64,000 nucleotides of DNA, from positions 124,001 to 188,000 of the forward strand of contig FOSY01000002.1 of NCBI GenBank assembly GCA_900114405.1, given 5' to 3'. The stretch comes from Lachnospiraceae bacterium KH1T2. GTDB lineage: Bacteria > Bacillota > Clostridia > Lachnospirales > Lachnospiraceae. Positions 984 through 54,971 of this stretch are shown piece after piece (position 1 is the first letter of the stretch; each line of letters starts with the position of its first letter). The position numbers and the translations under genes were made by a program. The notes under the pieces were generated by a model. That model did no database searches, was not told where the DNA came from, and saw only the letters and a program-made list of their open reading frames with translations.

Positions 984-1093
984 CTAGTGTTTTGGCTGGT
1001 TCGCATTTAATCTTATGTTATAGCTCGAATGAGCCTTATGTTGGCAATTCGAGATAGAGCATTAGATTAAATAAGAACCAGACAATACACTAG
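984..1093 (+). repeat. Covarying hairpin element, copy 1 of 3
   Basis: A 110-bp imperfect palindrome with CTAGTG at the left end and CACTAG at the right. Nested helices are GGCTGGTTC with GAACCAGAC, ATTTAATCT with AGATTAAAT, ATGTT with AGCAT, and CTCGAA with TTCGAG. The apical loop TGAGCCTTATGTTGGC is shared with the copies at 13016 and 25032. Arms differ from the other copies in ways that keep pairing. It ends 59 bp before the start codon of the flavoprotein gene, in the same orientation. Confidence 0.8.
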
Positions 1094-13015: not shown

Positions 13016-13126
13016 CTAGTGTTTTGGCACATTCATAATTAAACTTATGTCATAGCTTGAATGAGCCTTATGCTGGCGATTTCAAGATAGGACATTAGTT
13101 TAATTTAGAACGTGTCAATGCACTAG
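13016..13126 (+). repeat. Covarying hairpin element, copy 2 of 3
   Basis: A 111-bp imperfect palindrome with ends CTAGTG and CACTAG. Helices are GGCACATTC with GAACGTGTC, AATTAAACT with AGTTTAATT, ATGTC with GACAT, and CTTGAA with TTCAAG. The apical loop is TGAGCCTTATGCTGGC. It is about 92% identical to copy 3; the GT to CC change in one arm is matched by AC to GG in the other. It ends 67 bp before the Rpn-type pseudogene start. Confidence 0.85.
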
Positions 13127-13193: not shown

Positions 13194-13479
13194 ATGGAAA
13201 CGACACAGATTAACGTCCAGTATAAAAATAGCGCATAGAGCGGAGGTTTTGGACATGTGTATTACAGAATTTAATGAAAAGTCGTTTGTTGAAGGCATTA
13301 AAGAAGAAGGTAGAGAAGAAGGACGTGCTGAAGGACGTGCCGAGGGACTTGCTGAAGGTGAAGACCGTGTCATGAAATTATTGGAATATCTTCTGGATAA
13401 CGGATTGTTAGAAGATCTGAAACGAGTAAGGGAAGATTCTGCATACAAAGAGGAATTATTTAAAAAGTTAGGATTATAA
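13194..13479 (+). pseudogene. Rpn/PD-(D/E)XK transposase-like gene with internal deletion
   Basis: ATG 13194 (after GAGAGG) reads METTQINVQYKNSA and then stop. NVQYK is the usual start of these Lachnospiraceae nuclease/transposase-like proteins. After a frame change the text goes straight to the family's tail: HRAEVLDMCITEFNEKSF, then the charged repeat EEGREEGRAEGRAEG and a final helix LLEDLKRV. The roughly 200-residue nuclease core is absent. The gene is a remnant. The tail alone could be translated from ATG 13255. Confidence 0.65.
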
Positions 13480-25031: not shown

Positions 25032-25139
25032 CAGTGTTTTGGCACATTCATAATTAAACTATCCCATAGCTTGAATGAGCCTTATGTTGGCGATTTCAAG
25101 ATAGGGGATTAGTTTAATTTAGAACGTGTCAATACACTA
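25032..25139 (+). repeat. Covarying hairpin element, copy 3 of 3, inside the uronate operon
   Basis: A 108-bp imperfect palindrome. The helices are GGCACATTC with GAACGTGTC, AATTAAACT with AGTTTAATT, ATCCC with GGGAT, and CTTGAA with TTCAAG; the apical loop is TGAGCCTTATGTTGGC. Against copy 2 it lacks the outermost CT and differs mainly in the ATCCC/GGGAT helix, where both changes are compensated. It fills the aguA-eda gap and ends 18 bp before the eda start codon. Confidence 0.85.
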
Positions 25140-54750: not shown

Positions 54751-54800
54751 TTTAATGTTTTGTCTCGCCAGTATTGCTGTTTTTAATTAGCTGAACTTAT

Positions 54801-54845
54801 ACTAACGATGTAAATTCTTTGCTGATGAGAGTTTACATCGTTAGT
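54801..54845. repeat. Perfect 14-bp inverted repeat between TRAP and rsfS genes
   Basis: ACTAACGATGTAAA and TTTACATCGTTAGT, 17 bp apart, no T run on either strand. It is not explained by either flanking terminator. Confidence 0.6.
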
Positions 54846-54971
54846 GTTTAGTCCAGGTTATTAAAAACAGTTATACTAAGTTTATGCTGACATATCTCGC
54901 ATACAAATCCTTGCAAATCTCACATATCATTTAACTCAATCAGAGATTGTCCCCACAATCGAGAAAAATAT

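Follow-up and report, generated by a model that had tools for sequence, protein, structure and literature searches.

The three hairpin sequences in the window, the stretch of 64,000 nucleotides of the Lachnospiraceae bacterium KH1T2 genome analysed here, are very probably non-autonomous MITEs of an IS630-family (Tc1/mariner superfamily) insertion sequence (IS). Dispersal in many copies, well-defined ends, often running from TA to TA within CTAG, the occurrence of dimers at eight sites, a patchy presence among related genomes and a resemblance of the ends to those of IS630 elements make this the best reading of the hairpins. An earlier note on the same DNA had described them as a new structured RNA rather than a MITE; that proposal gives way to the many copies without significant covariation, the TA termini in CTAG and the IS-related ends that were found, outcomes that the note had itself named as speaking against it. 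The hairpins, each listed as a very probable MITE copy, and those of their terminal inverted repeats that are flanked by TA occupy the following positions in the window.

984..1093, plus strand: hairpin MITE (very probable), copy 1, of a diverged subfamily (CTGG/CCAG; ATTTAATCT/AGATTAAAT); flanks CTA..TAG; sister copies at L078, L101 and L102
13016..13126, plus strand: hairpin MITE (very probable), copy 2, of the main subfamily; flanks CTA..TAG
25032..25139, plus strand: hairpin MITE (very probable), copy 3, of the main subfamily; left end ACA, without the T of TA, and right end TAA; missing from the orthologous intergenic region of the related genome G005
985..1011, plus strand: left terminal inverted repeat of copy 1, 20/27 identical to the left end of the IS630 element L189
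1066..1092, minus strand: right terminal inverted repeat of copy 1, 20/27 against the same L189 end
13017..13043, plus strand: left terminal inverted repeat of copy 2, 21/27 against the same L189 end
13099..13125, minus strand: right terminal inverted repeat of copy 2, 22/27 against the same L189 end
25113..25139, minus strand: right terminal inverted repeat of copy 3, 23/27 against the same L189 end, the top match of the window

The basic description given in the earlier note holds: all three copies lie at these coordinates on the plus strand, with an ATG 59, 67 and 18 bp downstream, and each folds into one hairpin (-51.1, -48.2 and -46.4 kcal/mol; z scores of -10.1, -8.7 and -8.5) whose stability was reached by none of 200 shuffled sequences. 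The ATG behind copy 2 starts a frame of just 14 codons. The hairpins are 108–111 bp long and contain no transposase gene, and the arms of copies 1 and 2 measure 46–47 nt and are 80–83% complementary. Self-complementarity extends over the ends and most of the interior, so that RNA transcribed across the element would fold into one long hairpin. The helix differences quoted in support of an RNA are present in the sequence, but the outer helix of copy 1, CTGG/CCAG, does not pair in full in L078, L101 and L102, the sister copies, where the right arm reads CAAG, and the third-helix variant of copy 3 also occurs at L054 and therefore represents one inherited change, not an independent event. Behind the short broken frame that follows copy 2, at window positions 13281–13400, sits a Glu/Gly-rich repeat tail, which we take to be typical of Rpn/PD-(D/E)XK transposase-like genes.

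The 3.87-Mb draft genome (62 contigs) contains the element at 48 same-strand places according to BLASTN (51 rows, three of which are the palindrome on the other strand) and at about 62 distinct places, with strands merged, according to a covariance model at E ≤ 0.1, for which scoring covered 150 of 2043 first-look candidates and of which the weakest may be chance matches. Several contigs break off within the element. Head-to-tail dimers with an identical junction are present at eight sites, and three of them (L038, L039 and L040) are bounded by CTA and TAG as if they were single units. Two copies, L061 and L089:1996, are chimeric, with the left arm from one subfamily and the right arm from another. 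Orphan ends, considered as possible remnants of autonomous copies, proved to be truncated or decayed hairpins, end-only matches of ~20–40 bp or, at L083, sequence without any match. Copies of the element adjoin other repeats, including a second CTAG-ended hairpin repeat. The latter, an imperfect palindrome of ~112–120 bp (CTAGTATTGCTG...CAGTTATACTAG), lies at ~54769–54880 in the window and at L055, L078, L063, L047 and L032, and adjoins the main element in several loci.

Many full copies read CTA-GTGT...ACAC-TAG, that is, from TA to TA within CTAG. The ends were tallied in 46 of the 48 full copies, two being too short. These 46, which include 16 dimer units as well as copies whose ends have decayed, have TA on both sides in 18 cases. 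Left ends flanked by TA read CTA in 21 cases and TTA in three, and the corresponding right ends read TAG (21), TAA (8) or TAT (1). A 4-bp duplication of CTAG was set aside because the flanks of L051 (TTA..TAG) and L052 (CTA..TAA) are better explained by a 2-bp duplication of TA at YTAR. A repeat that is itself multicopy in this genome (CTTCAGTAACGGGTTTTGCCATTAGAGATTGCC...) has the hairpin inserted in L033 and L035 and is free of it in L082 and L038; as the empty sites read CCAG, against CTAG-element-CTAG when filled, this comparison does not cleanly demonstrate the TA duplication. Palindromic target sites, apparent on visual inspection of a few flanks (L039, L042 and L058), are missing from most and were abandoned as a rule. 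IS630 reportedly prefers CTAG, to judge from the title of the 1991 paper by Tenzen and Ohtsubo. As described in the parts of the study drawn on here, ISY100 inserts at TA, which was duplicated in 34 of 39 products, while three of the 39 had TA at one side and just A at the other (PMC2170065). The ACA ends and the dimer junctions of the hairpin element resemble these TA/A products as that partial account presents them (PMC2170065).

A transposase-bearing relative, L189, was found in Butyrivibrio sp. INlla16. It is an IS of ~1.28 kb, with the inverted partner of its end at about 1283 bp and two overlapping frames, and it matches the domains PF13358 DDE_3 (3.4e-25) and PF13565 HTH_32 (9.3e-12). 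A search of 397 genomes of the family with the L189 DDE frame gave matches at E ≤ 1e-20 in 14 genomes. Five further IS (L263, L264, L265, L267 and L275), recognised through protein similarity to that frame (75–79% identity), are complete elements of 1278–1283 bp whose ends are related and whose flanks read C-TA..TA-G; the DDE frame of L267 contains one stop. All six carry eight consecutive A at coding position 526–540, within the frame overlap, which suggests frameshifting, possibly programmed, or transcriptional slippage. When the left end of L189 (its first 27 bp) was compared with all TA sites of the window on both strands, the top five matches were the TA-flanked hairpin ends, with 20–23 of 27 positions identical, and the next site reached 17; the sixth hairpin end, on the left of copy 3, is the one without TA. 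Against the compared TA-flanked window ends, the other five IS score 15–20 of 27, L189 being the closest of the six.

This draft assembly gave no match to the IS630 DDE_3 domain and none to the L189 protein, and an IS bearing exactly the TAGTGTTTTGRCAC end of this genome was not found. Co-occurrence of hairpins and IS630 elements is weak: among the eight MITE-positive genomes of the genus, G044 alone has an IS630 relative, in pieces, and in the family samples G069 alone appears in both lists (end motif and IS630), its motif being without a hairpin partner. The source of the transposase lies outside this assembly and may have been lost, left unassembled, or supplied via horizontal transfer. On the model of the biochemistry of IS630 and ISY100, an IS630 transposase acting in trans would bind both inverted ends, excise the element by double-strand cuts and reinsert it at TA, preferably within CTAG, with duplication of the TA.

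The element joins a known class of IS630-related MITEs, such as RUP. In the sections of the reports used here, RUP of pneumococcus is a 107-bp, high-copy, intergenic repeat with TA termini, ends that are paired in the fold and IS630-like ends (PMC2229807, PMC3049150). By those partial descriptions, and at the level of general features, the hairpin element matches the RUP/IS630-Spn1 pair in size, copy number, intergenic position, TA termini, fold and IS630-like ends. It differs from RUP in its Lachnospiraceae host, in that its autonomous relative was detected in other species, the host genome yielding none, and in the existence of a 158–166-bp form with a maintained fold over several genera. 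ERIC/IRU and Correia/NEMIS are likewise presented, in the portion of the survey consulted, as TA-ended long stem-loop MITEs of roughly 105–155 bp with reported effects on mRNA (PMC2229807). The hairpin element is like them in its TA-ended stem-loop form, as far as these excerpted descriptions go, and differs in that an IS630 relative exists; the same portion names an IS partner, among these repeats, for RUP alone (PMC2229807). The Lachnospiraceae IS, for its part, shares with IS630/ISY100, as the latter are characterised in the parts of the study cited, a DDE_3 transposase, insertion at TA and a preference for CTAG (PMC2170065). Unlike that system, the window elements are devoid of a transposase and the two frames of the Lachnospiraceae IS overlap, with the A8 run inside the shared stretch. 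None of the literature matches listed, mostly without subscription papers and without ISfinder, reports this element in Lachnospiraceae. By analogy with ERIC and NEMIS (PMC2229807) and with the pneumococcal repeats (PMC3049150), as treated in the parts of these papers referred to above, it is possible that RNA derived from the element affects neighbouring genes.

Within the genus, 8 of 48 genomes (including that of KH1T2) match the element at E ≤ 1e-5 in a search whose filters miss weak matches. The covariance model of the 111-bp copies also revealed hairpins of ~160 bp with like ends in G001, G012, G013, G020 and G044. A sister end motif, CTAGTGTRCTGACACRTTC, is one or two bases off the TAGTGTTTTGRCAC or TAGTGTATTGACAC of the KH1T2 genome, and has 105 matching stretches in 84,980 species genomes. 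In 95 of these stretches, the record title names Lachnospiraceae or a genus (eight in all) that NCBI assigns to the family. An inverted partner is present within 300 bp in 63 of the 105 stretches, most often at a spacing of 158–166 bp (43 stretches); the other spacings are 37–71 bp (14), 91 bp (3), 116 bp (1), 153 bp (1) and 222 bp (1). The 42 stretches without a partner in that range comprise the IS L189, eight that lie less than 170 bp from the end of a stretch, and a remainder that is truncated, decayed or due to chance. The position after the right end, which the search pattern did not include, is occupied by G in 57 of 62 relatives. Viral contigs yielded four single ends, none with an inverted partner within 300 bp, which we treat as chance, and no match to the apical motif. 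Near-perfect palindromes of 37–49 bp at L115, L118, L227 and L074 consist of scarcely more than the two ends and are possibly the smallest mobile form. At L089 (G027:C72), two copies of the hairpin, separated by 1.3 kb, lie near two putative TnpB-like ORFs.

Covariation was assessed with an R-scape-like script of our own, not R-scape, in which the null is obtained by placing the observed substitutions per column on a FastTree tree. The 111-bp set consisted of 46 distinct copies, 44 from the KH1T2 genome and one each from G018 and G027, drawn from 52 sequences (50 full own-genome copies above 40 bits plus those of G018 and G027; the overlapping loci L069, L086 and L088 were excluded). No column pair in this set reached E < 0.05, and none of the 33 hairpin pairs passed Bonferroni correction, with 10 of the 33 at nominal p < 0.05. 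The 160-bp set comprised 36 non-redundant members of 55 elements of 150–170 bp, after removal of near-identical elements and duplicate records (e.g. G193/JAFUZE). Here, five column pairs reached E < 0.05 over the full matrix, three of them hairpin pairs and two neighbouring non-pairing cross-terms; 13 of the 61 hairpin pairs passed Bonferroni correction and 32 were nominally significant, against 0–2 and 3–12, respectively, in shifted registers. Because the hairpin was derived from the tested sequences themselves, half-versus-half controls were added alongside the shifted registers. The structure derived from one half was paired in 83% and 92% of the cells of the other half, and 3 of 63 and 8 of 55 pairs passed Bonferroni correction in the two half tests (0–1 and 1–2 in shifted registers).

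The fold thus appears to be maintained, within a mobile element; across the wider family the pairing may plausibly be under selection, which is not evident from the copies of this genome alone. The contention that pairing is kept up accordingly has support in the 160-bp relatives, and fails for the 111-bp copies on which it was based. Covariation cannot tell an RNA hairpin from a DNA hairpin. The fold might be kept because folded transcripts would be less harmful to neighbouring genes, or because folded DNA or RNA would aid propagation of the element.

As far as the fold is concerned, and in a manner compatible with the identification of the hairpins as MITEs, the compensatory changes could have been made by arm-to-arm correction (template switching or gene conversion) and not by selection, which we regard as possible though rather unlikely. 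The chimeric copies L061 and L089:1996 indicate that arms are exchangeable as blocks, the matched differences inside this genome amount to few events, and five of the 16 listed loop positions of the 160-bp form are mostly complementary, as one position of the 111-bp form is about half paired. Such correction should, however, remove the mismatches of the internal loops, most of which persist in both families: 6 of 8 loop positions in the 111-bp form and 10 of 16 in the 160-bp form are mostly unpaired, with A.A in 39/45, T.T in 37/45 and T.T in 44/46 copies of the former and pairing in less than one-third of cells at the 10 positions of the latter.

A more doubtful extension of the MITE interpretation is that the folded transcript, beyond the DNA ends, is under selection across Lachnospiraceae, so that the 111-bp and the 158–166-bp forms would constitute a mobile family of structured RNA genes. 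If this were the case, the hairpins might, for example, have a silencing or insulating effect on the regions around them or act as modulators of the IS630 transposase, and the retention of the stems, the mostly constant loop mismatches and the near-constant length over several genera would be accounted for.

It is very improbable that the element is a cis-regulatory or trans-acting structured RNA in its own right, such as a 5' UTR hairpin controlling the downstream gene. Strong hairpins do lie 18–67 bp ahead of the window ATGs, covariation is detected within the 160-bp family, and none of 64 hits called for context falls inside an ORF of at least 90 aa according to a crude ORF caller. The arrangement that the earlier note had considered invariable, a plus-strand element upstream of a plus-strand gene, is true of the three window copies; genome-wide, by crude ORF calls, a downstream ORF could be scored for 52 copies and 25 of these have the sense orientation, so there is no orientation rule toward the downstream gene. 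The left neighbour is antisense in 38 of 56 cases (p 0.01), a count in which dimers enter twice and to which we give no weight. The element further occurs in about 62 copies in varied contexts and in 8 of 48 genus genomes, and the 111-bp copies yield no significant hairpin pair. Comparison with Rfam at gathering score produced no known RNA family for the element: nothing matched in the window, and in five loci, of which four carry the 160-bp form and one the 111-bp form, the matches were limited to two tRNAs. In G005, the genes that flank copy 3 are conserved (71–72% identity), with no element-like match in the stretch that separates them. This orthologous interval (L134) is an unrelated sequence of nearly equal length (149 versus 154 bp) that likewise folds strongly (-48.0 kcal/mol, a value without a shuffle control), in favour of a structured RNA at the site; given the strong fold and similar length, a different hairpin may occupy it. 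The 149-bp interval is possibly another repeat or a terminator.

An element of the IS200/IS605 or REP/RAYT type, recognised as a single-strand hairpin and moved by an HUH Y1 transposase, is the least likely of these readings: the hairpins are long and imperfect with mostly constant mismatches and the genome has four Y1_Tnp matches, but the ends resemble those of IS630 elements carrying DDE transposases, many copies have TA and CTAG at both sides, and the four Y1 loci show no profile match to the element (E ≤ 10). An IS1182/IS1272 partner, considered with regard to insertion near palindromes, was rejected, as the own-genome IS1182-like loci (L108–L111; four, all under the family cut-off and three at contig ends) have ends unlike the hairpin.

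The identification of the hairpins as probable IS630 MITEs illustrates that a handful of copies of a mobile repeat can, through compensatory changes, give the impression of a new RNA. It gives a name to a mobile element that reaches high copy number in one genome and recurs across a major family of gut bacteria, and ties this element to a type of transposase. The element family also provides a data set for testing why bacterial MITEs remain folded.
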